A stretch of 64,000 nt of DNA, taken from assembly GCF_010672455.1 (NCBI RefSeq), contig NZ_JAAHGO010000025.1, positions 1 to 64,000 of the forward strand. The letters run 5' to 3'. Of this stretch, positions 12,566 through 42,909 are shown piece after piece (within the stretch, counting starts at the first letter, position 1; each line of letters begins with the position of its first letter). The notes under the pieces are model-generated. The model searched no databases and was not told where the DNA came from. It was given only the letters and a program-made list of their open reading frames with translations. Position numbers and translations under genes: made by a program. Source of the DNA: Okeania sp. SIO2C9 (GTDB taxonomy: Bacteria > Cyanobacteriota > Cyanobacteriia > Cyanobacteriales > Microcoleaceae).

Positions 12566-13103
12566 AATTATTCTATGTTATATTTGCTATATAATTTTAT
12601 CTCTAGTTTAATCATACAATCAAACTTTTTCTATAGGGTTTAACCCTCTACTGACTATTTTATCCATGATTAATTATTAAAAAATTAATTTTTCTGAAAA
12701 TTTTACTATAAACATATAGATTAACTAGCTGTAAGCTATCAGTTACTAGCAGTCAGCGGGAATAGTCCATATAAAAAAGACATCTAAAAGCTTGGATTAA
12801 AATCCCCGACTTCTAGCTTTTCGTTGAATTTTATGAGGGGTTGAAATCCCATTCTAAAAAGCTGAATACTAAACGCTCTCTCGCTGTTTGTGGAGCATTC
12901 CATCAGGAAATGCTTTTTAATAATGTTGATTTAATGATTTTATTAAGATTACTTTTTTAATATATTTTAGGAGATATAACAAAAAGATTAAGCGGGTAGT
13001 CGTGATATGGTTTATATAGAAACACTAGATTTTACAAGTGCAAAATTGTGTATCAAAATTATCATTAATGAATAATTAACTTATAATTTATCGTAATTTA
13101 GTG
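12566..13103. other. Intergenic between the two PATAN-REC genes
   Basis: No gene seen. It holds AGCTATCAG-type units as in family C (12730-12760), an imperfect hairpin around AAAATCCCCGACTTCTAG and GGGGTTGAAATCCC (12800-12850), and a degraded copy of the small palindrome (GGAGCATTCCATCAGGAAATGC, about 12890-12915). The spacing of over 500 bp argues against a simple operon. Confidence 0.45.
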
Positions 13104-23220: not shown

Positions 23221-25005
23221 TCATTTTTCGGTAACTTTCAATTCATCAATATTCCAAAAAGCTCCACCAATAGCAGAGAATTTTAAATTATCTATACGAT
23301 CGCGAACTGCTTGGAACGAAAGAGGGTTTACTAAAAAAAATATAGGCAACTGTTCCGCAACAATTTGCTGAAACTGACCGTAAATTTCTCGACGTTCATT
23401 CTCATCTACCGTCTGATATCCAGCAGCAAATAAACGGTCAATTTCTTGCTCCCAATTAGAAACTTGCCAATTTTGCATTGGTGTTTCTCCAGGTTTAGCA
23501 CCAAGATTAAATTGATGAAATGAGCCATTACTTAACCAAAATAAGGAGAGTAAATTTGGCTCAAAATCTGCACCAGGAACACCAAAAGCTCCGACATAAC
23601 ATTCCCAATCTCTACGAAGTAATAGCTTCTCTAAAACAGTATTGAAATTAAGTACCTGTAAATTAGCTTGAATCCCAATTTTACTTAAATCTTCTTTGAC
23701 TTGAACTGCTGTATCTATTCTGAGTTTTTCTTCAGATTTTACTAAAATTGTAAATTCTACTCGGTTACCATCCTTGTCTAATAATTCATTGGCATTATTA
23801 TATTTAAAACCAGCATCTAACAATAAGTTTCTAGCTTTTTCATGGTCATAATTATAGACCTTTAATCCTGCTTCCGGAGATAAATAATAAGGACTTTGTA
23901 CCCCCAGAGCAGAATGTTGTATTGCTCCTAAACCTCGATAAATATTATTATTTATCTGTTGACGGTCAATAGCATAAGCAACTGCCTGACGAAACGCCAA
24001 ATTATTAAACCAACCAGACTTAATAGGATTTAAAAAAGGCTTACCTTCCGAATTTTTAGCTTGATTAAGATTAAAACCAACAAACTGATAGCCAACTTGA
24101 GGACCACCATTATAAATCTGATATTTTCCTCGTTTTTCTTCTCGTTTAAGTAATTGAAATGCTTCGGCATCTACTCGTAGAGTATCTAATTCCCCAGAAC
24201 GAAATCTGAGCAATTGATTATCGGTTGAAGGAATAATTTGGATAATAATTTCATCGAGATAAGGCAGTGAATTACCCATGGCATCAGAACGCCAGTAAAA
24301 AGGATTTTTTTGTAAAATAATTCTTTGAGAAGGTATATAACCAGCAAGTTTAAATGCACCATTACTAATAATTTTTTGTGGTTCTGTGTTTGTATTCCAG
24401 GTTGATAAAAATAGAGGTTTACCATCAGCATCACTTGATAAAACAGTATCTCGCAAAGCATGAGCTGGTAAAATTTTTAATCTTTCTATATATCTGAGAA
24501 ATGGGGCAAATGGTTCAGGCAAAATAAATTCAACTCTTTGTCGATCGAGTTTTTTGATAGAGGGAAAAGCACCATTTCTACCAATTCTTAAAAAGTCTCT
24601 GTAAACAGTAGGAATTTGTTTATTTAGATAAATATCTTGATAGGTAAAAACAACATCATCAGCAGTTAGAGGTTCCCCATCAGACCATTTTAATCCTGAG
24701 CGTAAAGTAAAGATAATTCGTTTTTTATCTTCAGACAAAATCCAAGATTCTGCTAATGCTGGTTGTAACTCACCAGTTAGACCATTTTCTGATAGTAATC
24801 CTTCGTAAATAAAATTAAAAATTCCGTATGGAGAACGAGATATTGGGTAGTTAAAAGTGGGTGGCGCACTAGGCAGAACTAAAACTAATTTGGAATTATT
24901 ATTAATCTGTGAATTTAATAATATTGGGCGACAACCACTTATTAAAATCAATAAACAACATAATAAAAATCCAATTGAAAAATGTAGGAATCGAAAAATC
25001 ATCAT
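23221..25005 (-). CDS. Family 5 ABC-type substrate-binding lipoprotein (peptide type), orphan
   Basis: 594 residues. A lipoprotein signal peptide with lipobox LISGC (Cys25) is followed by a complete SBP_bac_5 fold: PTFNYPISRSPYGIFNFIYEGLL, LAESWILSEDKKRIIFTLRSGLKWSDGEPLTADDVVFTYQD near residues 80-130, and FRQAVAYAIDRQQINNNIYRGLG. Such proteins bind oligopeptides, nickel chelates or other solutes at the outer face of the inner membrane and hand them to an ABC permease. No permease or ATPase gene is present in the window. The nearest upstream genes on the same strand are three Cache-domain receptors, so sensing rather than transport is possible (inference). It is about 530 bp from the first receptor, with repeats between, so co-transcription is not assured. 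Confidence 0.85.
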   Translation of the reverse strand: MMIFRFLHFSIGFLLCCLLILISGCRPILLNSQINNNSKLVLVLPSAPPTFNYPISRSPYGIFNFIYEGLLSENGLTGELQPALAESWILSEDKKRIIFTLRSGLKWSDGEPLTADDVVFTYQDIYLNKQIPTVYRDFLRIGRNGAFPSIKKLDRQRVEFILPEPFAPFLRYIERLKILPAHALRDTVLSSDADGKPLFLSTWNTNTEPQKIISNGAFKLAGYIPSQRIILQKNPFYWRSDAMGNSLPYLDEIIIQIIPSTDNQLLRFRSGELDTLRVDAEAFQLLKREEKRGKYQIYNGGPQVGYQFVGFNLNQAKNSEGKPFLNPIKSGWFNNLAFRQAVAYAIDRQQINNNIYRGLGAIQHSALGVQSPYYLSPEAGLKVYNYDHEKARNLLLDAGFKYNNANELLDKDGNRVEFTILVKSEEKLRIDTAVQVKEDLSKIGIQANLQVLNFNTVLEKLLLRRDWECYVGAFGVPGADFEPNLLSLFWLSNGSFHQFNLGAKPGETPMQNWQVSNWEQEIDRLFAAGYQTVDENERREIYGQFQQIVAEQLPIFFLVNPLSFQAVRDRIDNLKFSAIGGAFWNIDELKVTEK

Positions 25006-25534: not shown

Positions 25535-28500
25535 TTACTTGTGAGTAAATGCCCAAACTCCTTCCCAGTTGTTCGGCACACCAGTTGCTGTTAACTCCTC
25601 AATTCTTTCTAGATAAAGTTGGGATGTTTGGTCTGAAGAATTAACTGCCAATACTTTCTCAAAATAATTCTTAGCACCAACCAAATCTCCCAAACGATAA
25701 TACTCTACAGCTAGTTCAAAATCTGCCTGAGTTCTTAATTTTAATTCTCGCACAGAATCTACTTCTCCATCAAGCACTTCATAAACATTAATCGGTTCAT
25801 CTCTACCCTTAACAGAAGCTCTATCTAGAAATCTAATTTGATATTTTTGAGGATCTTTTAAACTCTTAAAAGCTGACTCAGAAATTAATAAAGAAACTCC
25901 ATAATACTTAGTCAAACCTTCTAAACGTGAAGTCAAATTCACATTATGAGAAAGTGCATCTCCTGACATCCGAGTTTCCTCTCCAATGATGCCAACCATC
26001 ATATGACCCCAATGAATACCAATGCCAATTTTCATCGGTAACAAACCCATAGCTTTTAGAGTCTGATTATATTCCTGTAATGTCTTAAGTTGAGAAATAG
26101 CTGACTGTATAGCATCATCAGCGCCTTCAGGAAATACAGCCATAATACCATCTCCCATAAACTTAATAATTAAACCATTGTAAGCACGAATTTCCGGACA
26201 AACTTGTTGTAAATAACCATTGACAAAAGCAAAAGTTTCTTGAGAAGTCATCTTTTCAGATATACTCGTAAAAGAGCGAATATCAGAAAAGAATATAGCC
26301 ATTTTTTTACTCACCCGATCGCCTAAATTGACATCAAGAATATTTTCTTTTGATAGCAATTTGACATATTCATGGGGTACAAAACGTCCGTAAGCATTAG
26401 TGATTTTTGATAATTGAAGATGGGTTTTAACCCTAGTTAATAATTCATCTTTAGCAAAGGGTTTAGTCAAATAATCATTGGCACCAAATCGGAAACCCAT
26501 AACTAAATCAGCTACTCTATTTTTAGCAGTTAACATCAAGATGGGCAAACTTTGAGCAGGATATTTTTCCCGAACTTTAGCGCAGACTTCATAACCAGAC
26601 ATATTAGGCATCATTACATCTAGTAAAATCATGTCAATATTCGTTTCTTTCTCCAAAACTGCCAAAGCTTCTTTTCCGTTTAATGCTTGAGTAACTTGAT
26701 AGTTATTAGCTTTGAGGTGGTTATTCAAAACTTGAATATTTATAGGTTCATCATCGACAATCAAAATATGAAAGTTACTATTGTAAATATTAGTATCAAG
26801 AGGAGTTATTTCTTCAATTTCTACTTGCTCTTCAATATAATGAATACTTTTTATTGAAGCATTCAAGGTTTCTTCTACAGTTTCTTGAGAAATTGGTAAG
26901 GTAAAACTAAAGCGAGAACCAATATCCACTTCAGACTCAACCCAAATCTGACCGCCATGAAGTTCAACTAATTGTTTTGTGACTGCTAACCCTAAACCTG
27001 TGCCGCCGTACTTTCTTGCTGTAGAACCTTCACCTTGCTCAAAAGATTCAAAGATGCGGTCTAATTTATCATTAGGAATACCAATACCAGTATCAGAGAT
27101 AGCGATTACCAGTCTTTCCCATTCAAGGCAAGAGCGATCGCTATTTTGAGATTTTGTAGTAAGATCGCTAACTAATGCAGCTGACATTTCAATTACTCCA
27201 GATTCAGTAAATTTGATAGCATTGCCAATTAAATTATAAAAAATTTGTTGCAAACGATTTTCATCAGCATAAACTGGAGGTAAATTTTTGGGAACACTGT
27301 TGATTAATTCCAGGTTTTTCTTTTTTAAAGAAACTTGACTTAAAGCCATCACTACTTCAACCACCCCACGCACATCAACTGGTTTAATTTGCAGTTCTAA
27401 TTTTTGGTGTCTGAGCTTTGAAAAGTCAAGAATATCGTTGACGAGATTAGATAGACGACGAGCGCTATAAACTATCATACTTAAGTTGGAAGAGGCGACC
27501 GAATTTAACTCTCCAGTGTTACCTTCCAAGATAAATTCACCAAGACCAATAATCCCATTAAGTGGGGTTCGGAGTTCGTGGGAGGTGTTAGCTAAAAATT
27601 CATCTTTGAGGCGGTCTAGTTGTTTGAGCTGCTCGTTTTGTGTTTCTAAAGTTTGAAAAGAATTTTTAAGTTGACTTGCCATGAGATTAAAAGAGTTGGC
27701 AAGTTCGCCTACTTCATCACGACGGTGAATATTGAGTTTATTTTCCCATTTGCCTTCAGCGATTTCTTTAGCCGCAGAATTAAGTTGTAAAATAGGTTGT
27801 GAAATCCAGTTCGTAGTTACTATTCCTACTAATATAGCTACAATCAAAGCAGCAAGACTTAATAAGATTGTCGTTCGGGTGTTGGTGTCTATTTTTTCCA
27901 TGAAATCCTTCTCAGGAACGATTACAACCACTAGCCACTCAATCCCTTTACCATCCTTAACTGGCATGATGCTAGCATAATACCACTCTCCATCAATCGG
28001 AAAATTGATTTGTTCGTTACCCTCAATTTCATCAAAATTACCGAAATTTTCTTGTAGGTGTTTTGCCGTGGAACTTACTATAATGTTATCGCTATCAATA
28101 GCAGGTAAGCGTTCAATTTTTTTCTTTTCACCAACTTCAATAGTTAGGAACGGTTGGGAAATCTGAGAACTAACAACTAAATCTCCTGATCGCTCCATAA
28201 TAAAACTTTGTCCATTGGGACTAATATATAAGTTTGTAAGAAATTCTGTAATCCTGGTCAAGCTGGTCTGATTTGCTAAAATCCCAATTAACTGGCCAGT
28301 AGAATTAAAAATGGGTCTGACAGCAGATATATCCAAAGATGTATTAGCACGAGAGAAAGCTGGATAAATAGAACTCCATGTGGGTTGACCAAGTTTCTTT
28401 GCCGCCTTATACCAAGGACGAATCCGGGGGTCATACTCTTTTACTGTCACAAACTCTTCCGCATTACCCTGAGAATCTAACCGATAAATTTCACGAACTG

Positions 28501-28945
28501 GTTCAGTAGCTATAGTACGAATCCGGAAGACAATTTCACCATTATCAGGATTAAGTTCAACACCAATAAATTCTCCCTGCTCATTACCGAAAAAAAGGTC
28601 ACTTTCCAAATCCCCTTCTTTAATAATTTGCCAAAAATAGGCTCGCATTGCCTGAAAATTGTCAACATCTAAATTGTCACTTTCAATTGCATCATTAGTT
28701 ACTCTTAGTACCTGATAAGACTTGTTGAGATAACTTAAAACGTGCTGTTCAATACGAGAACTAATTTCTTTAGTTAACTGGTTTGCAAGAGTATCGACAG
28801 TTTGGCGTCCATTAGTAAAAGAAAAATATCCTACTAATCCCACAGCACTAACAATTTGTAGAATAAAAGGGACAATAAGGACAGTTTTGAGAGGAAATTT
28901 ATTAAACATTTTGCCCAGTGTGAGAGATAGAGGTCTAAATAACAT
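25535..28945 (-). CDS. Receptor adenylyl cyclase: dCache-HAMP-histidine kinase-REC-cyclase, copy 1
   Basis: 1,136 residues. TM1 about 21-43; periplasmic dCache about 45-345 with RPWY at 176-179; TM2 about 357-378; HAMP about 380-435; HisKA with SHELRTPLNG (His456); HATPase with NLIGNAIKF, DTGIGIP and GGTGLGLA; receiver with VDDE, phosphoacceptor Asp776 (LLDVMMP) and Lys828; class III cyclase about 878-1060; helical tail. In the cyclase Asp888 and Asp932 bind metal, Lys928 and Asp996 select adenine, and Asn1003 and Arg1007 stabilise the transition state, so all catalytic residues are present. It should convert an outside signal to cAMP, probably via His-to-Asp phosphotransfer, as proposed for cyanobacterial CyaC, which shares the kinase-REC-cyclase order. 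Paralogs lie directly upstream at 29525 and 33234. Confidence 0.9.
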   Translation of the reverse strand: MLFRPLSLTLGKMFNKFPLKTVLIVPFILQIVSAVGLVGYFSFTNGRQTVDTLANQLTKEISSRIEQHVLSYLNKSYQVLRVTNDAIESDNLDVDNFQAMRAYFWQIIKEGDLESDLFFGNEQGEFIGVELNPDNGEIVFRIRTIATEPVREIYRLDSQGNAEEFVTVKEYDPRIRPWYKAAKKLGQPTWSSIYPAFSRANTSLDISAVRPIFNSTGQLIGILANQTSLTRITEFLTNLYISPNGQSFIMERSGDLVVSSQISQPFLTIEVGEKKKIERLPAIDSDNIIVSSTAKHLQENFGNFDEIEGNEQINFPIDGEWYYASIMPVKDGKGIEWLVVVIVPEKDFMEKIDTNTRTTILLSLAALIVAILVGIVTTNWISQPILQLNSAAKEIAEGKWENKLNIHRRDEVGELANSFNLMASQLKNSFQTLETQNEQLKQLDRLKDEFLANTSHELRTPLNGIIGLGEFILEGNTGELNSVASSNLSMIVYSARRLSNLVNDILDFSKLRHQKLELQIKPVDVRGVVEVVMALSQVSLKKKNLELINSVPKNLPPVYADENRLQQIFYNLIGNAIKFTESGVIEMSAALVSDLTTKSQNSDRSCLEWERLVIAISDTGIGIPNDKLDRIFESFEQGEGSTARKYGGTGLGLAVTKQLVELHGGQIWVESEVDIGSRFSFTLPISQETVEETLNASIKSIHYIEEQVEIEEITPLDTNIYNSNFHILIVDDEPINIQVLNNHLKANNYQVTQALNGKEALAVLEKETNIDMILLDVMMPNMSGYEVCAKVREKYPAQSLPILMLTAKNRVADLVMGFRFGANDYLTKPFAKDELLTRVKTHLQLSKITNAYGRFVPHEYVKLLSKENILDVNLGDRVSKKMAIFFSDIRSFTSISEKMTSQETFAFVNGYLQQVCPEIRAYNGLIIKFMGDGIMAVFPEGADDAIQSAISQLKTLQEYNQTLKAMGLLPMKIGIGIHWGHMMVGIIGEETRMSGDALSHNVNLTSRLEGLTKYYGVSLLISESAFKSLKDPQKYQIRFLDRASVKGRDEPINVYEVLDGEVDSVRELKLRTQADFELAVEYYRLGDLVGAKNYFEKVLAVNSSDQTSQLYLERIEELTATGVPNNWEGVWAFTHK

Positions 28946-29060
28946 AAAAGCTTTAAGTTTATTTCTAATATATCTCTGAACTTGAATTTGATCATGCCAA
29001 TTTTAAAAAAAGAATGTTACAAATTATAGGGAATAGGCAACAATTAATAATTAATAATTA
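28946..29060 (-). promoter_or_regulatory. Leader shared by receptor copies 1 and 2
   Basis: The 5' flank AAAGCTTTAAGTTTATTTC, TAATATATCTCTGAACTTGA and AAAAAAAGAATGTTACAA is repeated almost unchanged upstream of copy 2 (32906-33000). It therefore duplicated with the gene and may contain the promoter; no clear -10/-35 was assigned. Part of it (AAAAAAAGAATGTTAC) also occurs at 20220, so some of this is dispersed repeat. The rest of the gap to 29524 holds AATTAAT arrays and CTCCCCCTCTCC low-complexity sequence. Confidence 0.4.
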
Positions 29061-29524
29061 TTGCTCTACCGAGCTAATCTAGGGTTTGCTGAATAAAGTT
29101 TTTTGATAGGAGTAGGAGACAGGAGATAGGAGTAAGAATTGTCCCTCAATTTTTCTGTCCTTAGTTAGCATAAAAGCCAGGGGGGATAGCAAAAAAATCA
29201 CGATCGACAATTGTTCCGGGTATCTTTTCTATAATTCCTCGTTTCTCTTAACTAGGGCTTGCGCTCATAAAGCTAAAAGTCAGGTAGCTTAGGGTAATTG
29301 AGCTTTTTATATTCAATTTATCTCCTAAGTTATTGGCTCTTATTGGCATCAATTTACTGAATTTTTCTGCTGAAATTCAAGAAAATTTCTTCGCATAAAA
29401 TGGCGAAACCATTGTCTGTTACCCCATCTCCGCGTCTCCCCCTCTCCGTGTCTCCCCCTCTCCCCCTCTCCCCCTCTCCCACTCTCCGTGTCCTCAATAA
29501 CCCACTCCCCACTCCCTACTCCCT

Positions 29525-32500
29525 TTACTTGTGAGTAAATGCCCAAACCCCATCCCAGTTTTTGGGCACACCAGTTACAGTTAATTTATCAATTCTTTCT
29601 AGATAAAGTTGAGCTGTTTTATCTGAAGAATTAACGGCTAATACTTTCTCAAAATAATCTTTAGCAGTAACAAAATCTCCTAACCGATAAAACTCTACAC
29701 CCAATGCAAAATCTGCTTGAGTTTTTAATTTTAATTCTCGTACATAATCAATTTCTCCATCTAGAACTTCATAAACATTAATAGCTTTATGTCTACCTTT
29801 TACAGATGCACGGTCTAAAAATCTAATTTGATATTTTTCTGTATCTTTCAAACCCTGAAAAACTGATTCAGAAATTAATAAAGAAACTCCGTAATATTTA
29901 GTTAAACTTTCCAAACGAGCTGTCAAATTCACATTATCAGAAAGTGCATCTCCTGACATCCGACCTTTCTCCCCAACTATACCTACCATCATGTGACCCC
30001 AATGAATACCTATACCAATTTTAATTGGGGGAAAATCTTCTGCTTTTAGGGTCTGATTATATTCTTGTAATTTCTTAAGTTGAGCAATAGCAGTTTCAAC
30101 GGCATCATCAGCGCTATCCGGGAATACTGCCATAATCCCATCTCCCATAAACTTAATAATCAAACCATTGCGATCGCGAATTTCTGGACAAACCTGTTGT
30201 AAATAACTATTGACATAAGCAAAAGTTTCTTGAGAAGTCATCTGCTCGGATAGGGTTGTGAAAGAGCGAATATCAGAAAAGAAAATTGCCATTTCTTTAC
30301 TTACTCTATCTCCTAATTTAACATTTATAATACTTTCTTTTGAGAGTAACTTCACATATTCGTGAGGAACAAAACGCTCATAAGAATTAGTAATTTTTGA
30401 TAATTGAATATGAGTTTTAATCCGAGTTAATAACTCATCTTTAGCAAAAGGTTTAGTTAAATAATCATTCGCACCAAATTGGAAACCCATAACCAAATCA
30501 GCCACTTGATTTTTAGCAGTTAACATTAAAATGGGCAAATTCTCCGCAGGATATGTTTCTCTAATTTTAGCGCAGACTTCATAACCAGACATATTTGGCA
30601 TCATTACGTCTAACAAAATTAGGTCAAAATTCTGATGTTTGGCTACAGCATCTAAAGCTTCTTTTCCATTTAATGCTTGAGTAATTTGATATTTATTGGC
30701 TGTCAAATGGTTAGTTAGAACTTGCACATTTATCGGTTCATCATCAACAACTAGAATATGGAAATCACCATCTGCTAAATGATTGTCATAGGGTTCGATG
30801 TTTGGGGATGTTTCTACGATCTCATTAACTCTAGAAACAGAAAGACTCAGAGGATCGGCGACATATTTTTCGGAAACGGGTAGAGTAAAACTCAAACTAG
30901 AACCGACACCAACTTGAGACTGTACCCAAATTTTACCCCCATGAAGTTCAACTAATTGCTTGGTGACAGCTAACCCTAAACCTGTACCACCGTATTTTCT
31001 AGCTGTGGAACCTTCTCCTTGTTCAAAAGATTTAAAAATGCTTTCTAATTGATCACTGGGAATACCAATACCAGTATCAGAAACAGTAATTATTATTTCC
31101 TGAAATGCTTGGGAGTTATAATTATTGGTAATTAGTGCTGCTGAGATTTCAACTTTACCAGAGTCAGTAAACTTGAGCGCATTGCCAATTAGGTTGTAGA
31201 GAATTTGTTGTAAACGGTTTTCATCAGCACTAACGAGAGGTAAATTTTTGGGGATAGCATTGATTAACTGTAGATTTTTATTTTTGCTGATCAATAGATT
31301 TAAGGTGACTACTGTTTCTACAACCACAAAAACATCAACTGCTTTAATCTGTAATTCTAGTCTATTGTATCTAATTTGGGAAAAGTCAAGAATGTCATTA
31401 ACTAGAGTAGAAAGACGACGAGCGCTAGATACAATCATAGTTAAGTTGGAAGTGATGGTTGTATTGAGATTTTGGGTTGGTTCTCCTAGAAGAAATTCAC
31501 CAATACCAATAATGCCATTCAGTGGGGTGCGGAGTTCATGGGAAGTGTTGGCTAAAAATTCGTCTTTGATGCGGTCTAATTTTTTCAGTTCTTGGTTTTT
31601 TGCTTCTAGGGTTTCAAAGGAGTTTTTGAGTTGTGTTGCCATCCGGTTAAATGACTGAGCAAGTTCTCCTACTTCATCCCCACGATCAATATGCAGTTGA
31701 TTTTCCCATTTGCCTTCCGCAATTTTTTTCGCAGCAGAATTAACTTGTAATATTGGTCTAGTAATCCAGTATGCAGTAAATATCCCAACTAAGATAGCGA
31801 TAATTAGAGCCGTAATACTCAATAAAATAGTAGTTCTGGTGTTGGCATCTATTTTTTCCATAAAGTCACTTTCGGGAACCACAACCACCACTAACCAATC
31901 AATACCCCGTCCGTCTCTAACTGGGATGACGCTAGCATAGTACCACTTTTTATTAATAAGAAAACTAAATTGTTTGCTGCGATTAACTTTTTCTAAACTA
32001 CCAAACATTTTTTCTAGGTGAGTTGCCGTAGCACTGACTACAGCATTATTGCTGTCAAAAGCGTGCAAGCGTTCTATGTTTCGTTCCCCATTAATTTTAG
32101 TAATTACAAAAGGTTCAATATCTTCGGAACTAGCAATTAGATTTCCAGAGTGCTCCATGATAAAGCTTTTGCCATTAGGACTAATCTTTAAGTTGTTGAG
32201 AAATTGAGTCATCTCAGTTAAGCGAGTTTCATTACCCAAAACTCCAATTAAATTATCGTCAGAATCAAAAATAGGTTTAACCGCAGCTATATCTAAAGAT
32301 GTGTTTTTGTCAGAAAAGCTAGGATAAATAGAACTCCATGTAGGTTCACCTATTTTTTCTGCTGCCTGATACCAGGGGCGAATGTGAGGATCATACTTTC
32401 TAATTTTCAATAATTTGCTGATATTAGCACGCTCATCTAACAGATAAGTTTCTCGTAATGGTTGAGTAGCTGTAGTCAGAATTCTCAAGACAATATCTCC

Positions 32501-32905
32501 ACTTTCAGGATTAATGTCAACGTTGATAAACTCTCCCTCTTCGTTACTAAAAAAAAGGTCGGTTTCCCACTCCTGATCTTTGACAATTTGCCAAAAGTAG
32601 AGCCGTATTGCACCAAAGTCGTAGAGATCAAAGTTGCCACTGGTAATAGCATCATTGGTTATTCTTAGAACTTGATGGGATTTGTCTAGATAATCTAGAA
32701 CATGCTGCTGAATACGAGTGCTAATTTCCAAAGTTAACTTACTCGCCAAAGTCTCAACTGATTCGCGTCCATTAGTAAAAGAAAAATATCCCACTAATCC
32801 CACAGCAGTAACAATTTGCAGAATAAAAGGGACAATGAGGACTGTTTTCAGGGGAAATTTGCTAAACATTTTGCCTAGTGTGAAATATAGAGGTCTAAAT
32901 AACAT
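29525..32905 (-). CDS. Receptor adenylyl cyclase, copy 2
   Basis: 1,126 residues with the same domain order as copy 1 and all key residues: RPWY in the Cache domain, SHELRTPLNG, NLIGNALKF, DTGIGIP, GGTGLGLA, receiver LLDVMMP, and cyclase FFSDIRSF, KFMGDG and GDALSDNVNLTAR (Asp seven residues before the catalytic Asn, hence adenylyl type). Its sensor domain is the most divergent of the three (SPNGKSFIMEHSGNLIASS against SPNGQSFIMERSGDLVVSS in copies 1 and 3), so it probably sees a different ligand. The C-terminal 140 residues are almost identical to copy 3, with few nucleotide changes over about 440 bases. Start MLFRPLYFTLGK equals that of copy 1. The upstream leader is shared with copy 1. Confidence 0.9.
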   Translation of the reverse strand: MLFRPLYFTLGKMFSKFPLKTVLIVPFILQIVTAVGLVGYFSFTNGRESVETLASKLTLEISTRIQQHVLDYLDKSHQVLRITNDAITSGNFDLYDFGAIRLYFWQIVKDQEWETDLFFSNEEGEFINVDINPESGDIVLRILTTATQPLRETYLLDERANISKLLKIRKYDPHIRPWYQAAEKIGEPTWSSIYPSFSDKNTSLDIAAVKPIFDSDDNLIGVLGNETRLTEMTQFLNNLKISPNGKSFIMEHSGNLIASSEDIEPFVITKINGERNIERLHAFDSNNAVVSATATHLEKMFGSLEKVNRSKQFSFLINKKWYYASVIPVRDGRGIDWLVVVVVPESDFMEKIDANTRTTILLSITALIIAILVGIFTAYWITRPILQVNSAAKKIAEGKWENQLHIDRGDEVGELAQSFNRMATQLKNSFETLEAKNQELKKLDRIKDEFLANTSHELRTPLNGIIGIGEFLLGEPTQNLNTTITSNLTMIVSSARRLSTLVNDILDFSQIRYNRLELQIKAVDVFVVVETVVTLNLLISKNKNLQLINAIPKNLPLVSADENRLQQILYNLIGNALKFTDSGKVEISAALITNNYNSQAFQEIIITVSDTGIGIPSDQLESIFKSFEQGEGSTARKYGGTGLGLAVTKQLVELHGGKIWVQSQVGVGSSLSFTLPVSEKYVADPLSLSVSRVNEIVETSPNIEPYDNHLADGDFHILVVDDEPINVQVLTNHLTANKYQITQALNGKEALDAVAKHQNFDLILLDVMMPNMSGYEVCAKIRETYPAENLPILMLTAKNQVADLVMGFQFGANDYLTKPFAKDELLTRIKTHIQLSKITNSYERFVPHEYVKLLSKESIINVKLGDRVSKEMAIFFSDIRSFTTLSEQMTSQETFAYVNSYLQQVCPEIRDRNGLIIKFMGDGIMAVFPDSADDAVETAIAQLKKLQEYNQTLKAEDFPPIKIGIGIHWGHMMVGIVGEKGRMSGDALSDNVNLTARLESLTKYYGVSLLISESVFQGLKDTEKYQIRFLDRASVKGRHKAINVYEVLDGEIDYVRELKLKTQADFALGVEFYRLGDFVTAKDYFEKVLAVNSSDKTAQLYLERIDKLTVTGVPKNWDGVWAFTHK

Positions 32906-32999
32906 AAAAGCTTTAGGTTTATTTCTAATATATCCCTGAACTTGAATTTGGTTGCTAATTAAAAAAAAAGAATGTTACAAGTTATAGGGAATAGACAAT

Positions 33000-33050
33000 A
33001 ATTAATAATTAATAATTAATAATTAATAATTAATAATTAATAATTAGGGC
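33000..33050. repeat. Heptanucleotide tandem repeat (AATTAAT type)
   Basis: Six to seven AATTAAT units upstream of copy 2; a shorter array of the same unit lies at the equivalent place upstream of copy 1 (about 29040-29060), so array length changed after duplication. The rest of the gap to copy 3 is low-complexity CTACTCCC sequence. Confidence 0.8.
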
Positions 33051-33233
33051 TTACCGATCTAATCTAAAAGCATTTATAGATAAAAGTTTTAGCCTTTTTA
33101 GAACTGGAAAAAGTACCTAGCTTTCAGCTCTTTATGCTCAAAAAGGTGCGCATTTTGGGCAGGAGAGTAGCCAAAAAATTACTCCCCTACTCCCTACTCC
33201 CCCGCTCCCCTACTCCCCTACTCCCTACTCCCT

Positions 33234-36200
33234 TTACTTCTGAGTAAATGCCCAAACTCCATCCCAGTTTTTGGGCACACCAGTTACAGTTAATTTATCA
33301 ATTCTTTCTAGATAAAGTTGAGCTGTTTTATCTGAAGAATTAACGGCTAATACTTTCTCAAAATAATCTTTAGCAGTAACAAAATCTCCTAACCGATAAA
33401 ACTCTACACCCAATGCAAAATCTGCTTGAGTTTTTAATTTTAATTCTCGTACATAATCAATTTCTCCATCTAGAACTTCATAAACATTAATAGCTTTATG
33501 TCTACCTTTTACAGATGCACGGTCTAAAAATCTAATTTGATATTTTTCTGTATCTTTCAAACCCTGAAAAGCTGATTCAGAAATTAATAAAGAAACTCCA
33601 TAATATTTAGTTAAACTTTCCAAACGAGCTGTCAAATTCACATGATCAGAAAGTGCATCTCCTGACATTCGATTTGGCTCTCCCACAATACCAACCATGA
33701 TAAAACCTACATGGATGCCAATTCCTACCTGAATTTGGGGTAAACCTTCTGCTTGTTGAGTCTGATTATATTCTTGTAATTTCCGAAGTTTACCTATAGC
33801 AGCTTGCAACGCATCATCAGCGCCTTCAAGAAATACAGCCATAATAGCATCTCCTATAAACTTAATAATTAAACCATTCCGGTCACGAATTTCTGGGGAA
33901 ACTTCTTGTAAATAACCATTGACAAAAGCAAAAGTTTCTTGAGGTGTCATGTTTTCAGATATAGTAGTAAAAGAGCGAATATCAGAAAAGAAAATTGCCA
34001 TTTCTTTACTTACTCTATCTCCTAATTTCACATCAAGAATATTTTCTTTTGATAGTAATTTAACATATTCGTAAGGGACAAAACGTTCGTAAGAATTAGT
34101 GATTTTTGATAATTGAATATGGGTTTTAATCCGAGTTAATAATTCATCTTTAGAAAAAGGTTTAGTCAAATAATCATTGGCACCAAATTGGAAACCCATG
34201 ACTAGATCGGCGACTTGATTTTTAGCAGTTAACATTAAGATGGGTAAACTTTGGGCAGGATATTTTTCCCGAATTTTAGCGCAGACTTCATAACCAGATA
34301 TCTGAGGCATCATCACATCTAGCAAAATCATATCGATATTCTTATTAGTCTCTAAAGCAGCTAAAGCTTCTTTTCCATTTAATGCTTGAGTAACTTGATA
34401 GTTATTAGCTTTTAAGTAGTTACTTAAAACTTGAATGTTTATAGGTTCATCATCCACAATTAAAATATGAAAATTACTATTAGCAATATCAGTATTGAGA
34501 GGAGTAATTTCTTGAGGTTTTTCTACTGAATCTACAAAATAACGAATACTATTGACCGTAGAAGTAGTAGAGGTTTCTGCTACAGATCCTTGTGAAATTG
34601 GTAGGGTAAAGTAAAATCGGGAACCAATACCAACTTCAGACTCCACCCAGATATGACCACCATGGAGTTCGACTAATTGTTTCGTGACTGCTAACCCTAA
34701 ACCTGTACCCCCATATTTTCTAGCTGTGGAACCTTCTGCTTGTTCAAAAGAGTTAAAGATGCGGTCTAGTTTATCACCGGGAATACCGATACCAGTATCT
34801 GAGACGACGATCCTCAGTTCTTGAAATTCCTCTATATTTTGATTGGAGTATTCTCGGGCCTGAATTTGTTGGTGGGGGTTTATAGAATTGTTGCGAATTA
34901 CTTCTGCCCAAATTTCGACTTTACCAGACTCAGTAAATTTAATAGCATTGCCAATTAAGTTATAGAGAATTTGTTGTAAACGATTTTCATCAGCACGGAC
35001 GGGGGGTAAGTCTTTAGGAATATTATTAACTAACTGTAGATGTTTATTTTTCCTGACCACAAATTTATTTAAGCTAACTACTGTCTCTACTACCCCATAA
35101 ATATTAATAGCTCTAATTTGTAACTCTAATGTATGGTGTCTGATTTTAGAGAAGTCAAGAATGTCGTTGACAAGATTAGATAGACGACGAGCACTAGAAA
35201 CTATCATGCTTAAGTTAGAACTAGTGATTGAATTTAGCTGTGGTTGATCTTCTTCTAAAAGAAATTCGCCAATACCAATAATGCCATTGAGGGGAGTTCG
35301 GAGCTCGTGGGAGGTGTTGGCTAAAAATTCGTCTTTGAGGCGGTCTAGTTGTTTGAGTTGTTCATTTTTTGCCTCTAAGCTTTCAAAGGAATTTTTGAGT
35401 TGGTTGGCCATGAGCTCAAAAGAGTTGGCAAGTTCACCTACTTCGTCGCGACGGTGAATATTAAGGGTGTTTTCCCAGTGGCCTGTAGCAATGTCTTTCG
35501 CAGCAGAATTAATTTGTAAAATTGGTTGAGTAACCCAGTGAGTAGTGGCTATTCCTACCAATATAGCTATCATCAAAGCACTAAAACTTAATAAAATAGT
35601 GGTCTTGGTGTTGGCGTTAATTTTTTCCATGAAGTCATTTTCAGGAACAACCACAACCACTAACCAATCAATACCTTTACCATCCTTAAGTGGCATGACT
35701 CTGGTATAGTACCAAGCTCCATCAATTAGAAATTTAAGTTTGCGATCGCTATTAATATTTTTAAAATCACCAAAATGTTCTTGCAGTTGTTCGACAGTAG
35801 CGCTTAGTGTAGGGTTATTACTTTCGATCGCAGGTAGACGTTGGATATTGCGCTTTTTGCCCTCTTCAGTAATGATAAATGGTGTCTTAATTTGAGAGCT
35901 GACTACTAAATCTCCTGATCGCTCCATAATAAAACTTTGTCCATTGGGACTGATATATAAGTTACTCAGGAAATTTGTAACTTGCACGAGAGTAGTTTTG
36001 TTCGAGAGAACTCCCACTAACTGCCCACTGGAGTTGAAAATAGGTCTGACTGCGGATATGTCTAAGGAGGTGTTTTGACGGGAAAAGGAGGCAAAAATTG
36101 GACTCCAGGTTGGTTCACCTAGCTGCTTTGCTGCTTTATACCATGGGCGATCGCGAGGGTCATAAGCTTTTCCTTTTAAATATTCGCTGATGTTACCCTC

Positions 36201-36635
36201 ATTATTAAGTAGGTAAGTTTCCCGAATAGGTTGAGTAGCAATGTTACGAATTTTAAAAAGAATATCTCCATTTTCTAAACGTTCAACCCCAATAAATTCT
36301 CCTTCTTTATTGCCAAAGAAAAGATAATCCTCCAAATCTTTTTCTTTTACCACTTGCCAAAAGTAAAGTCTCAGAGCAGCAAAATTATCAACATCCAAAT
36401 TTTCACTTTCTATGGCATCATTGGTTACTCTTAGAACTTGATGAGATTTATTTAGATATCCTAAAACGTGCTGTTCAATACCACTGCTAATTTTTTGGGT
36501 TAACTGGTTAGCAAGATTATCAACAGTTTGTCGCCCATTGATCAAAGAAAAATATCCTACTAATCCCACAGCACCAAAGATTTGTAGAACAAAAGGGACA
36601 ATGAGGACAGTTTTCAGGGGAAATTTGCTAAACAT
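33234..36635 (-). CDS. Receptor adenylyl cyclase, copy 3 (5' end altered by a TnpB element)
   Basis: 1,133 residues with the same architecture. Catalytic positions are kept: SHELRTPLNG, DTGIGIP, GGTGLGLA, REC LLDVMMP, cyclase FFSDIRSF, KFIGDA and GDALSDHVNLTAR. The sensor, kinase and receiver resemble copy 1, whereas the last 140 residues match copy 2. The start MFSKFPLK equals Met13 of the other copies. In-frame codons further upstream (TPLFFNLGK) still align with RPLYFTLGK, but a TAG precedes them where copies 1 and 2 have ATGTTATTTAGA. Thus the native start has been lost at the junction with the TnpB gene at 36666. The first 12 residues are not part of TM1, so the shortened protein may still insert and work. 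The original leader is also gone, so expression may be reduced or driven from the transposon. Confidence 0.85.
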   Translation of the reverse strand: MFSKFPLKTVLIVPFVLQIFGAVGLVGYFSLINGRQTVDNLANQLTQKISSGIEQHVLGYLNKSHQVLRVTNDAIESENLDVDNFAALRLYFWQVVKEKDLEDYLFFGNKEGEFIGVERLENGDILFKIRNIATQPIRETYLLNNEGNISEYLKGKAYDPRDRPWYKAAKQLGEPTWSPIFASFSRQNTSLDISAVRPIFNSSGQLVGVLSNKTTLVQVTNFLSNLYISPNGQSFIMERSGDLVVSSQIKTPFIITEEGKKRNIQRLPAIESNNPTLSATVEQLQEHFGDFKNINSDRKLKFLIDGAWYYTRVMPLKDGKGIDWLVVVVVPENDFMEKINANTKTTILLSFSALMIAILVGIATTHWVTQPILQINSAAKDIATGHWENTLNIHRRDEVGELANSFELMANQLKNSFESLEAKNEQLKQLDRLKDEFLANTSHELRTPLNGIIGIGEFLLEEDQPQLNSITSSNLSMIVSSARRLSNLVNDILDFSKIRHHTLELQIRAINIYGVVETVVSLNKFVVRKNKHLQLVNNIPKDLPPVRADENRLQQILYNLIGNAIKFTESGKVEIWAEVIRNNSINPHQQIQAREYSNQNIEEFQELRIVVSDTGIGIPGDKLDRIFNSFEQAEGSTARKYGGTGLGLAVTKQLVELHGGHIWVESEVGIGSRFYFTLPISQGSVAETSTTSTVNSIRYFVDSVEKPQEITPLNTDIANSNFHILIVDDEPINIQVLSNYLKANNYQVTQALNGKEALAALETNKNIDMILLDVMMPQISGYEVCAKIREKYPAQSLPILMLTAKNQVADLVMGFQFGANDYLTKPFSKDELLTRIKTHIQLSKITNSYERFVPYEYVKLLSKENILDVKLGDRVSKEMAIFFSDIRSFTTISENMTPQETFAFVNGYLQEVSPEIRDRNGLIIKFIGDAIMAVFLEGADDALQAAIGKLRKLQEYNQTQQAEGLPQIQVGIGIHVGFIMVGIVGEPNRMSGDALSDHVNLTARLESLTKYYGVSLLISESAFQGLKDTEKYQIRFLDRASVKGRHKAINVYEVLDGEIDYVRELKLKTQADFALGVEFYRLGDFVTAKDYFEKVLAVNSSDKTAQLYLERIDKLTVTGVPKNWDGVWAFTQK

Positions 36636-36665
36636 TTTGCCCAGGTTAAAGAATAGAGGTGTGAA

Positions 36666-37970
36666 CTACCCAATGCTATAGCTATTGCTACAGGATAGGT
36701 TTCCATCTTCGCTGGGAATAGCATCTAACAAAACTGATGTTTTGCCAGGTGACTTACATTCCCTCAGATTGGCAGTAGAGCTAGTTCCTAACTCCTGTTT
36801 TGAGTGCATTTGACATTTATCGTGCGACGGCAAATTACGCACTCGCAATATCCGCAAGGCTTCATTTTTGATATTGATTGCAGCATTAATCTCTCTATTA
36901 TGGGTTGTATGACAATGCTCGCAAGTCCAATTTTTCACATTCACAGACAAACTACCAACTTGATTTAAACAAATATTACAAGTTTGTGAATAAGGCAAAA
37001 AACGATCGACTTCTATATAAGTTTTTCCTTCTCTTTCTGCCTTATAACTAAGCATTGTTTCAAACATTCCCCAAGCACCATCACCAATAATAGATGCAGC
37101 TAAATTATTGTGTCTTGGTGCGCTACCAGGTGCGTCTTTTGCTGAGGTTGGGTCACACCGCTTTTTTATAGCCAGATTTTCCACTGCAATTACTTGGTTT
37201 TCGTTGACTATCTTGCGGGATAGCTTGTGTAGAAAATCTTCACGGCATCTAGCTATTTTCCCCTGTACTCTAGCTATTTTTATGCGTGCTTTAGTTTGGG
37301 CGTTGCTGCCTTTTTGTTTACGAGCTAATTTCTGCTGCTTCCGTTTGAGATTAAGAGTATATTTAGCAATATTCTTAGGATTTTTATATTTTGAACCATC
37401 TGATGTTATACAAAAATGAGTCGATCCTAAATCAATTCCTATTGCTTTTCCTTCTGCTGATTTTTCAGGATTTACTCGATCGTCTTCAACTAAAACAGAA
37501 ACAAAATATTTACCATCTGGATTAACAGAAACAGTTACAGTCTTGATTTCTCCTGAAAAATCTCTGTGGCGACGATAATAAACTAATCCAATTTTAGGTA
37601 GTTTGATATAGTTATCCTGAAATTCTACATTTTGAGGATAAGTAATAGATTGTCTACCTTTTTTAGACTTAAATTTTGGTAACTTAGCCTGTCTATCAAA
37701 GAAATTTTTGTAAGCTGTAGATAAGTTTAATGCTACTACTTGGAGACACTGAGAATAAGTATCTGTTTTTAGCCATTCATGCTCTTTTTTAAGTTGAGGA
37801 AGCATTTTTTGAATAGCTGCTCTACTGAGACTTTTTCCAGTATTTCTGTAGGTTTCATGGCATAAATTTAGTGAATAGTTCCAAAACCATCTACAACAAC
37901 CAAAGCTCTTCGCTAAAGCCAATTGCTGTTCTGATGTTGGATATATTCTATACTTATATGCCTGATACAT
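36666..37970 (-). CDS. tnpB: TnpB RNA-guided nuclease (IS200/IS605 family)
   Basis: 434 residues. N-terminal OrfB helix-turn-helix (YKYRIYPTSEQQLALAKSFG), RuvC-I GIDLGSTHF, RuvC-II VIAVENLAIKK and an intact zinc ribbon (CNIC, CEHC). RuvC-III reads HNREINAAINI, so Glu stands where the usual DRDxNAA has the catalytic Asp. TnpB makes guided double-strand breaks at vacated transposon sites with a guide RNA from the element's right end. No tnpA lies nearby, so movement would need a transposase in trans. The stop codon is only a few bases from the start of receptor copy 3, so the right end of the element coincides with the 3' end of the gene. The long C-terminal tail after the zinc ribbon is typical of cyanobacterial copies. 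Confidence 0.88.
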   Translation of the reverse strand: MYQAYKYRIYPTSEQQLALAKSFGCCRWFWNYSLNLCHETYRNTGKSLSRAAIQKMLPQLKKEHEWLKTDTYSQCLQVVALNLSTAYKNFFDRQAKLPKFKSKKGRQSITYPQNVEFQDNYIKLPKIGLVYYRRHRDFSGEIKTVTVSVNPDGKYFVSVLVEDDRVNPEKSAEGKAIGIDLGSTHFCITSDGSKYKNPKNIAKYTLNLKRKQQKLARKQKGSNAQTKARIKIARVQGKIARCREDFLHKLSRKIVNENQVIAVENLAIKKRCDPTSAKDAPGSAPRHNNLAASIIGDGAWGMFETMLSYKAEREGKTYIEVDRFLPYSQTCNICLNQVGSLSVNVKNWTCEHCHTTHNREINAAINIKNEALRILRVRNLPSHDKCQMHSKQELGTSSTANLRECKSPGKTSVLLDAIPSEDGNLSCSNSYSIG

Positions 37971-38490
37971 TTATCACTTATCTATAACAATGATAAAATT
38001 TTAGCATATATTTTTATGTATCCGCAACTATAGCGCTACGCAAATACGCTCTTGACATTCCTCTGTTCCCTTTTCCCACCAAAGTTTAAAGTTTATTGTC
38101 AAACGCCAAAAAACGTAGTGCTATATATTGATTGTGATTAATACCAACACCAAGACTCCACTATGATGCGGGACTTATCACAACATCAAATTATATCATG
38201 TCCGCTTGAATACTTATACTTTGGTGGAAGGAAGGCAGAGGGCAGCGGGAGCTCCTATGCTGTTTGCGTAGCATTCCGTAGGAAAGGGTTTCTTTCAATT
38301 GAAACTTAATTCTATACATGCTCCGATGCTACCGGACATGATATTAAAAGTAATATGTTTAATCCAACTTGATACGGTCTCGGGGTCTCCCGTTATCATC
38401 TGCGATTTAACGGGAGGAGAATTGCCGAGCTGTAAATTAAAAGGGTGTCGATTGCTGTTCAAATGCAGCACTAAAGAGTAGTATAAAATT
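37971..38490. other. Gap between two TnpB elements: family B variant and element end hairpin
   Basis: 38193-38344 is a family B variant with ends TATCATGTCCG and CGGACATGATAT and an inserted small palindrome (GCATTCCGTAGGAAA at 38270). 38386-38417 is a hairpin, TCTCCCGTTATC, loop, GATTTAACGGGAGG, nearly the same as the right-end hairpin after the broken TnpB (39947-39980). It may be this element's left end or a leftover right end of a neighbouring copy. A CTCTTGACATTC / AACGCCAAAAAACG stretch follows the first TnpB. Confidence 0.55.
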
Positions 38491-39958
38491 ATGATAATTA
38501 CTCATTGCTACAAAATTAAGCCCACTCCTGAACAGTCAGTCAAAATTGATTATTGGCTAGAGTTGTTACGAAGACATTGGAATTATGCTCTTGGTCAAAG
38601 ACTAGATTGGTTAAATAGAACTAGATGTCAAATTGACCGTTGCTCACTAATTTCATGTCCTATTGGCGAGATTTCTAGTAGGCCAGATTATTATTTTCAG
38701 CAATCAGCACTTAAACAGACAAAACAGTTATTTCCCGACTACAAAGAAATATATTCAGAAGTTCAACAAATTAACCTACAAAGACTAGATAAAGCTTGGA
38801 AACGTTGGCTAACACCTGGTAAAACTGGTAAACGTGGAGGACGACCAAGATTTAAAAAATCAGGAAAGTTACGGTCATTCTGTTTTAGTAGAGTTAATCA
38901 TTCCAAAGCAGTAATGAAATTTGATGGAAAACAAATAATTACTACGAGGTTTGGTGCTATTCCAGTCATAGTTCATAGACCAATTCCAGATGGATTAACG
39001 ATTAAAACTGCAACTATAACCAAAAACGCTGACGGTTATTATATAAGTTTCAGTTTAGAAGATAAGTCGATTCCTAGTTTAATTCCTACAGAAAATATCA
39101 AAACTGCTGTAGGTATAGATGTCGGTTTAAAAGAGTTCTTAACTACCAATACTGGTGAAACTGTTTCTGTTCCTAAATTCTATAGAAAATCCCAATCTAA
39201 TTTAGCAAGAAAGCAAAAAAAAGTATCTAGAAAAGAAATTGGGTCAAACAATTGGAGGGTAGCACAAAATAAAATAGCTAGACTACATCAACATATTGCT
39301 AGACAAAGAGAAGATTTCCATGTGCATTACTGCTCATAAATTAGTTAAAGAATATGATTTAATTGCTTTAGAAGACCTAAAGATTAGAGGTTTAGCTAAA
39401 AACACTAAACTCTCAAAATCAATTTATGATGTAGGTAAATAATGAATAATGAATAATGAATAATGAATGATCTCAAATCCGTTGGCTTCACAGTAGTATA
39501 ATTCTGTCGATCATCATACAATCGGCAAGGGTAAATGGCCATCATTCCCTACAATATAGACTCTGATCTTTAAAGATTAAATAACACCGATACTACCGGA
39601 TTTGATATGATTCTTTAATTATTAATTATTAATTATTAATTATTAATTATTTAAGGTGTTCATGTAGGTAGGGGCGAATGGCCATTCGCCCCTACATCCT
39701 CACAATACATCACAAAATTGTAGTAATTGTGGCCTAAAAGTCCCTAAGACTTTATCAGTTAGAACTCATTCTTGTCCTAAATGTAAAGTAGTTTTAGATA
39801 GAGATGAAAACGCTGCAATTAATATATTAAATAAAGCGTTAAACGAGGTGGGTATCATCTTGTCTGCTTGTGGAGGCTTAGATGTTAATCGGCCTGTGTT
39901 CGCGCAGCGTTGCGCAGCAAAACAAGAAACTTCTTTGTTTGAGAAGCTCCCGTTATAA
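38491..39958 (+). pseudogene. tnpB: TnpB, frameshifted and interrupted by repeats
   Basis: An intact first part (38491-39339; MIITHCYKIKPTPEQ, RRHWNYALGQRLDW, RuvC-I VGIDVGLKEF) ends by a frameshift near 39320. The next frame continues TAHKLVKEYDLIALEDLKIRGL (RuvC-II) to SIYDVG at about 39435. After about 270 bp of inserted repeats, the reading resumes at about 39707 with TSQNCSNCGLKV, SCPKCKVVLDRDENAAINIL (zinc ribbon and RuvC-III with the normal Asp) and ends FEKLPL. About 25-30 codons are lost at the insertion. It belongs to a different TnpB lineage from 36666-37970 and is the parent type of the deletion derivative at 59404. Confidence 0.85.
39437..39706. repeat. Repeat cluster inserted in TnpB, including family B
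   Basis: Starts with AATAATG heptamers. Next comes a family B element (39469-39609; GATCTCAAATCCG to CGGATTTGATAT), then AATTATT heptamers (39612-39652), then a perfect 28-bp palindrome (39668-39695, half-site GTAGGGGCGAATGG). All of it replaces coding sequence of the TnpB gene. Confidence 0.75.
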
Positions 39959-42438: not shown

Positions 42439-42472
42439 AGGGAACAGGGAACAGGGAACAGGCTGTTTCATT

Positions 42473-42716
42473 CTCGATAGAAACGGAGACGCGGAGACAC
42501 GGAGACACGGGGATGGAGGCTTTTAATCATAAATTAAAAGTTGGCTTTTCACCCTCGATAGAAACGGAGACGCGGAGACACGGAGACACGGGGATGGAGG
42601 CTTTTAATCATAAATTAAAAGTTGGTTTTTCACCCTCGATAGAAACGGAGACGCGGAGACATGGAGACACGGGGATGGAGGCTTTTAATCATAAATTAAA
42701 AGTTGGCTTTCACCCA
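42473..42716. repeat. 81-bp tandem repeat, three copies, between ndhF and ndhD
   Basis: Units start at 42473, 42554 and 42635 with CTCGATAGAAACGGAGACG and contain GGAGGCTTTTAATCATAAAT. They differ by only a few bases. Because 81 is a multiple of three, a repeated frame runs through them, but it has no gene-like start signal or similarity. A TTCTTCC heptamer run follows at about 42837-42880. Confidence 0.9.
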
Positions 42717-42909
42717 AAGAAGTATAACTGCCCATAACTTTCTCCCCGTAAGGCTTTGAGATAAACGCAAAAACTTAGAATGAAACAGCTTTGAGGGAAC
42801 AGGGAACAGAAAATTAACAATTTCGAGTAATATTTCTTCTTCTTCCTTCTTCCTTCTTCCTTCTTCCTTCTTCCTTCTTCAAACATTTTAAAAGTGGGAT
42901 TTGATATTT

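Follow-up and report, generated by a model that had tools for sequence, protein, structure and literature searches.

Three tandem kinase-receiver-cyclase receptors with divergent sensors in an Okeania genome, and a fixed TnpB gene upstream of one of them

The CyaC enzymes of the cyanobacteria Arthrospira and Anabaena join a histidine kinase, a receiver and a class III cyclase on one chain, and their N-terminal part is made of cytosolic receiver and GAF domains. Here, we analysed a 64,000-nucleotide (nt) stretch of DNA from the Okeania-type cyanobacterium Okeania sp. SIO2C9 (the window, on contig C168; the genome, hereafter G000, comprises 10.9 Mb on 317 contigs), in which three adjacent genes, A, B and C, likewise carry a kinase, a receiver and a class III cyclase on a single chain (Table 1). 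They differ from CyaC in that a transmembrane dCache sensor and a HAMP domain take the place of its N-terminal part. Among solved cyclase domains, the nearest were CyaB 3r5g (E = 1.4e-24) and 2w01 (1e-21) and photoactivated adenylyl cyclases (about 1e-20 to 1e-22), with 1wc1 at 1.6e-14; entries 1wc0 and 1wc1 we take to be CyaC. Because other solved cyclases are closer to this cyclase domain than CyaC is, we do not file the arrays under CyaC. The sequence-only reading from which this work started had called them CyaC-type, which fits their layout and neither their cyclase nor their N-terminus. According to the portion of PMC4284465 consulted, AphC phosphorylates and activates CyaC. A resemblance in evolutionary style is found in the trypanosomatid ESAG4/GRESAG4 receptor-type adenylyl cyclases, a gene family in which variable outer domains are combined with a conserved cyclase (83-87% identity, as given in the available part of PMC6027212). 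Those proteins are eukaryotic, have a single transmembrane helix and a Venus flytrap sensor, and contain neither kinase nor receiver, and common descent is not implied.

The dCache_1, HAMP, HisKA, HATPase_c, Response_reg and Guanylate_cyc domains were detected in this order in A, B and C, all above the curated Pfam cut-offs, and together with the gene lengths this agrees with the initial description of three adjacent minus-strand genes of 1,126-1,136 residues sharing one domain order. We examined 15 positions that we take to be the catalytic ones (kinase His, N-box Asn, G1 Asp and G2 Gly; receiver D/D/D/T/K; cyclase D, K, D, D, N and R), and all 15 were intact in each of the three proteins, as that description had also held for the catalytic residues. 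With its two metal Asp residues, Asn and Arg, the Guanylate_cyc domain is that of a class III nucleotide cyclase. Cyclases of the adenylyl type have Lys together with Asp or Thr at the purine-selecting positions; A, B and C have Lys and Asp. For comparison, 60 stretches were fetched for selected matches in other genomes, giving 71 loci with the window included and 99 kinase-receiver-cyclase frames, some of which are pieces of broken genes. Lys was present at the purine-selecting position in 99 of these 99 frames, accompanied by Asp in 45 and by Thr in 54. The window genome holds six full-length copies of this architecture, namely A, B, C and the copies D, E and F on other contigs.

We propose, with a probability of about 0.7, that A, B and C work as receptor adenylyl cyclases under the control of an internal phosphorelay, and that they would respond to different ligands and give one kind of output. 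The extracellular dCache domain would bind a small molecule and the signal would pass through HAMP to the histidine kinase, which would phosphorylate the receiver of its own chain or of its dimer partner; the receiver would then open or close the class III cyclase, whose predicted product is cyclic AMP (cAMP), the enzyme being presumably of the adenylyl rather than the guanylyl type. The three copies stem from duplication within a family that builds such arrays again and again; conversion keeps parts of the output half alike, and the sensors differ and may sometimes be exchanged. Such an array would let different ligands drive a shared cAMP output, possibly through one cAMP pool. The same fusion could also be a scaffold more than a switch, with the receiver handing its phosphate to a partner and the cyclase being constitutive or regulated in another way, by bicarbonate or dimer geometry. 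In favour of a scaffold, bicarbonate stimulation of a CyaC enzyme is reported in the consulted portion of PMC4284465, and the phosphorelay step in A-C is itself a predicted one. Of the 99 related frames, however, 97 keep the kinase His (the other two have a Gln and a gap) and all 99 keep the phosphoacceptor Asp, the Thr and the Lys of the receiver. The receiver-cyclase linker is also well conserved (82-90% identity among A-C), and we regard the scaffold explanation as quite unlikely.

Comparing the paralogues A, B and C domain by domain showed that, among the folded domains, the sensor has diverged most (58-68% identity), against 70-77% for HATPase, 75-84% for HisKA, 76-81% for the cyclase and 82-89% for REC. 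The initial claim that the copies diverged mainly in the sensor is accurate for folded domains and has to be narrowed otherwise, as the HATPase-REC linker (32-55%) and the HisKA-HATPase stretch (49-60%) differ as much or more. The tails of B and C are 99% identical. Divergence at synonymous sites (dS; tables computed without the broken A of G003) was 1.03-1.85 among A-C in the sensor and dropped to 0.49-0.76 in the linker-cyclase portion, whereas no fall from sensor to cyclase was seen between A or D orthologues. The genus group g1 consists of G000 and four genomes, G001-G004, taken as Okeania sp. SIO3B5, SIO2B3, O. hirsuta (G003) and SIO1I7. Third-position differences gave the same contrast: the value for the sensor minus that for receiver, cyclase and tail was +0.14-0.36 in seven of seven paralogue pairs (five in G000 and two in G002) and between -0.06 and 0.06 in six orthologue pairs, the interval for A of G000 and G002 lying below zero. 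Every sensor type is preserved within an orthologue group of its own, nonsynonymous divergence (dN) between species being 0.006-0.038.

An AlphaFold model of the A sensor, built on a 31-sequence alignment, reached a mean predicted local distance difference test score of 91.9 and matched structures of dCache chemoreceptors including PctA, Mlp37 and McpX (E 1e-10 to 2e-11). As in the dCache_1 amino-acid and amine sensors PctA and PctD, the Y....R.WY part of the motif is present: residues Y121, R126, W128 and Y129 of PctA are kept in the YDPxxRPWY of A, B and C, and the position of Y144 is Tyr in A and B and Phe in C. The Asp at D173, which holds the ligand in PctA, is conserved in the amino-acid and amine motifs according to the parts of PMC11245519 and PMC10104139 consulted, strictly so in the words of PMC11245519. 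It is replaced by Gln in A, Glu in B and Lys in C, departing from the Asp that marks dCache_1AA sensors. These types recur in the intact orthologues (Gln in 4/4 A, Glu in 2/2 B and Lys in 5/5 C), and B-type relatives are mixed, with Glu in X of G001 and in G016 and Gln in G034. Because this Asp is replaced by three different residues, it is probable that none of the three is an ordinary amino-acid sensor and that they are unlike one another.

These data also bear on the question of whether the copies are redundant, with one ligand and one function, kept for dosage only while their sensors drift. The common architecture and similar catalytic domains would fit such a role, as would a conversion that keeps one end alike. 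The sensors are, however, far from identical and each type is conserved across species at the low dN given above, the D173-position residue is type-specific in intact orthologues (the B-type relatives being mixed), and copy number is not constant, G002 and G004 having A and C without B; retention for dosage alone is, in our estimate, improbable. Of the multi-input cAMP switch put forward by the sequence-only reading, the complete tandem kinase-receiver-cyclase receptors and the sensors more different than the outputs both stand. The pocket residue particular to each type and the preserved orthologue groups fit several predicted inputs feeding one cAMP output.

Near its 3' end, B is almost identical to C (Table 1). 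Within this tract, B of G000 differs from B of O. hirsuta at 61 of 432 positions, compared with 54 of 3000 elsewhere, and C of G000 differs from C of O. hirsuta at only 8 of 432. Because the end of C stays O. hirsuta-like and the end of B departs from O. hirsuta B, C was the donor, and its sequence replaced the final ~430 nt of B once the O. hirsuta lineage had separated. A tandem triplication followed by sensor divergence, as initially suggested, is therefore an incomplete account, which leaves out that conversion overwrote an output end and that a sensor was either exchanged or very fast in its divergence in related copies. The locus offers a bacterial case of sensors that diversify as gene conversion keeps the output ends similar, and its defined pocket changes can be tested for ligand choice.

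The dispersed copy D and two copies from other genomes, together called T (G010 C25:43049 and G028 C450:16966), were used to compare the histories of sensor and output. The cyclase of D is 79-83% identical to those of A and B and 75% to that of C, and its sensor is only 27-29% identical to those of A-C. In E, which has a more distant cyclase (59-62% to the array), the sensor is closer (34-36%). The sensor alignment kept 76 of the 99 frames, those with a full-length dCache, and 45 of these 76 were chosen for approximately unbiased (AU) tests. In the output tree, the array, D and T formed one clade with a Shimodaira-Hasegawa-like approximate likelihood-ratio support of 100, within which D and T were nested (97, with a single array row left outside). 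The array stood alone in the sensor tree (100), and the sensor data rejected a grouping of array, D and T (AU p 0.007). The output data did not reject the array with D and without T (p 0.27) or with T and without D (p 0.054).

Several observations weigh against the proposed switch or parts of its history. The sensor data reject neither the array with D (p 0.25) nor the array with T (p 0.21), and the groups tested had been picked from an initial tree of the same data, which weakens the p-values. Since the single groupings were not rejected and the groups were taken from that initial tree, the sensor of D would reflect either exchange or very fast divergence; a sensor exchange as one proven event was considered and dropped. 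As to the dS gradient, C orthologues show a mild fall (0.22-0.34 in the sensor to 0.05-0.15 at the C-terminal end, for C of G000 against G001, G002 and G003), and for the C pair of G000 and G001 the third-position excess of 0.063 (interval 0.010-0.114) is above zero, so part of the gradient may be constraint. With 29 matches to class III cyclase domains in the window genome, the array need not dominate cAMP, and C may be expressed differently from A and B because its own promoter region is gone. If constraint accounted for the whole gradient, the low synonymous divergence of the output half would reflect restricted codons, as conserved domains can have, and not conversion. The mild fall in C orthologues goes in that direction. 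However, A and D orthologue pairs lack such a fall, B and C are near-identical in the tract within G000, and only there does B differ strongly from B of O. hirsuta, making codon constraint a very unlikely explanation.

Matches to A at E <= 1e-180 were found in at least 71 of the 118 genomes searched. Counting two or more such genes on one strand less than 4 kb apart as a run, with all run counts being lower bounds, runs of two or three genes occurred in at least 20 genomes, all of the same family, with at least nine runs of three; those of O. hirsuta and G034 include broken copies. The array is therefore not unique, nor is the arrangement rare. Among the loci compared, runs with three dCache sensors were confined to the window genome and O. 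hirsuta, where copy A is broken, and in the other seven triples, all from genus group g11, the sensor of one gene was matched by the dCache profile only in a short, weak stretch. In G002 and G004, A and C lie side by side. Drawing 388 genomes evenly from the class gave 13 with a match at E <= 1e-250 (at most two candidates scored per genome). The architecture therefore occurs sparsely across the class, and array formation is typical of this family. We found no description of these arrays in the open-access literature, which was searched mostly at the level of titles and the beginnings of abstracts. In O. hirsuta (loci L105 and L127), both A and E are broken into two frames, an internal stretch of A is missing as well, and B and C are intact.

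The 5' end of C differs from those of its sisters. A and B start with ATGTTATTTAGACCTCTAT; C instead follows in frame on a tnpB gene whose stop codon is separated from the ATG of C by 30 nt, and the TnpB element occupies the place of the promoter and first 12 codons seen in A and B. C is thus not an intact copy at its 5' end, its first codons having been lost to an IS605-type TnpB. The closest described systems are the TldRs, which, according to the part of PMC13418256 available, originated through loss of RuvC activity and depend on seed nucleotides 1-6. The junction of tnpB with C and an open TnpB frame were found in all five genomes of genus group g1, window genome included, and in G016, publicly labelled Okeania and belonging to another genus group, no TnpB match was found at E <= 1e-100. 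Ratios of dN to dS for TnpB were 0.17-0.30 in 10/10 pairs (non-independent; p 0.009 to 4e-10). Position 361 of ISDra2 TnpB, like position 191 presumably catalytic (both counted on a printed alignment), is Glu in the five genus-group TnpBs, compared with Asp in 27 of 27 own-genome paralogues covering it (29 of the 35 matched loci were read) and in all 25 of the relatives that were read (60-67% identity). Position 191, the RuvC-I Asp, is Asn in G002 and G004 and still Asp in the other three. In the 3' scaffold region, 220 of 233 columns are conserved and folding is near-identical in all five, and Rfam gave no guide-RNA family at the TnpB end, its four matches there being far below their families' thresholds.

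The lost RuvC Asp, purifying selection, fixed junction and conserved scaffold together make the TnpB beside C a probably domesticated, TldR-like and nuclease-dead protein. It shares with TldRs a lost RuvC residue, a frame under selection, a stable link to a non-transposon gene and a retained guide-RNA scaffold region. It differs from them in its cyanobacterial host, its place beside a cyclase receptor, the RuvC-I Asp remaining in three of five and a guide and target that are putative; a limited set of open-access texts contained no pairing of TldR with cyanobacteria. Against domestication, this TnpB could be an ordinary insertion sequence that happens to persist without a role, to which we give somewhat less than an even chance. 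IS605-type TnpB is very common in the genome (36 matches at E <= 1e-40, including the one beside C), and the short spacer separating TnpB from C differs across the five genomes, showing no trace of constraint. A dead remnant should, however, decay and an active element should keep its nuclease, whereas here the same junction and open frame persist in all five, the frame is under selection as given above and nuclease residues are lost.

If this TnpB is functional, its putative guide is the former 5' coding sequence of C. The first 8-10 guide nt match the start of A in G000, G001, G002 and G004, and in G000 that of B as well, behind a motif resembling a transposon-adjacent motif (TAM), TTTAG or TTCAA, one base off the TTTAA that is common at the left ends of TnpB relatives (left ends judged by eye). 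The broken A of G003 has TTTAA as its motif and the guide there is mismatched at nt 3, which speaks against selection for guide pairing. The 14-nt seed pattern TTYAR + ACCTCTATC had eight sites in the five genomes, compared with four for a reversed control; six lie at A or B starts, and the other two, in G002 and G004, overlap an opposite-strand, ABC-ATPase-like frame at its end and are probably a single chance site common to both genomes. We also considered and rejected a full-length target of the guide at another place in the genome, since the 20-nt TAM-plus-guide pattern with up to three mismatches had 19 sites compared with 11 for the reversed control; sites with two mismatches numbered only two, one being the TnpB-C locus itself. 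Similarity of the guide to A and B starts is expected by descent and so is no proof of function. The guide-start observations would also fit escape from self-cutting, because an active TnpB in one member would cut the sisters unless motif, guide or nuclease changed. Conceivably, though we think it unlikely, TnpB was kept as an RNA-guided silencer, so that transcription through tnpB and C would make C and repress A and B, a choice between sensors sharing a cAMP output. TnpB would have jumped into the first codons of C, the amputated start of C could as a guide have targeted the sister genes, and the nuclease would then have been lost. If so, insertion into one member of a repeated family, which makes the other members targets, suggests a reason for nuclease loss. 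A functional dead TnpB here would add one more independent example of a transposon nuclease converted into a gene regulator, inside a sensory array, and the TnpB beside the array is the part most worth experiment.

Table 1 Features of the array and its surroundings (window positions; aa, amino acids; ORF, open reading frame; TM, transmembrane)
Feature	Position	Strand	Basis or remark
Receptor cyclase A, 1136 aa	25535..28945	-	ORF + Pfam
Domain layout of A (residues): TM, dCache 52-341, HAMP 377-427, HisKA 447-513, HATPase 561-686, REC 727-840, class III cyclase 880-1051, tail to 1136
Receptor cyclase B, 1126 aa, architecture as A; last ~430 nt copied from C	29525..32905	-	ORF, Pfam, sequence comparison
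Receptor cyclase C, 1133 aa, architecture as A; internal Met start, original start replaced by TnpB element	33234..36635	-
Conversion tract in B	29528..29959	-	5 differences from C in 432 nt, vs 732 in 2931 nt elsewhere
Tract donor, 3' end of C	33237..33668	-	Comparison with O. hirsuta C and B
A Gln226 at PctA D173 position	28268..28270	-	Codon position counted by hand
B Glu226 at PctA D173 position	32228-32230	-	Codon position counted by hand
C Lys213 at PctA D173 position	35997-35999	-	Codon position counted by hand
TnpB, 434 aa, OrfB_IS605/Cas12f1-like_TNB, fixed upstream of C	36666..37970	-	RuvC-III Asp -> Glu
TnpB element right end, TTCAC	36661..36665	-	Common to relatives just before variable flanks
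Putative guide, former 5' coding sequence of C	36636..36660	-	Between TnpB right end and new ATG
Motif-plus-seed match at A start, TTTAG + ACCTCTATC	28926..28939	-
Motif-plus-seed equivalent at B start	~32886-32899	-	Counted by hand
Copy D	contig C1		63% to A
Copy E	contig C223		50% to A
Copy F	contig C284		48% to A

A second, truncated TnpB-type frame of 282 aa with a partial OrfB_IS605 match lies at 38491-39339 (+), in a stretch without a match in the congener loci used for comparison. A short insertion with the inverted repeats ATATCATGTCCG / CGGACATGATAT (by eye), at about 38190-38345 close to the left end of the TnpB element beside C, is present in the window and apparently missing in G002 and G004. 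Upstream of the array, NdhF- and NdhD-type NAD(P)H dehydrogenase subunits are encoded at 40345-44490 (+), and directly downstream an SBP_bac_5 oligopeptide-type solute-binding protein at 23221-25005 (-), a neighbour of the array in O. hirsuta and G004 too. Two adjacent DUF4388-receiver genes of ~400 aa each, at 11366-14312 (-), form a further pair of similar signalling genes. In the window genome, 15 matches to cyclic nucleotide monophosphate-binding domains were counted, which favours the proposed cAMP output. Beside copy E, at C223:29012-31015, a separate dCache-HAMP-kinase gene of ~690 aa, with one TAG inside the match, encodes a possible partner kinase; such a gene adjoins E also in G002, G003, G004, G011 and G016.

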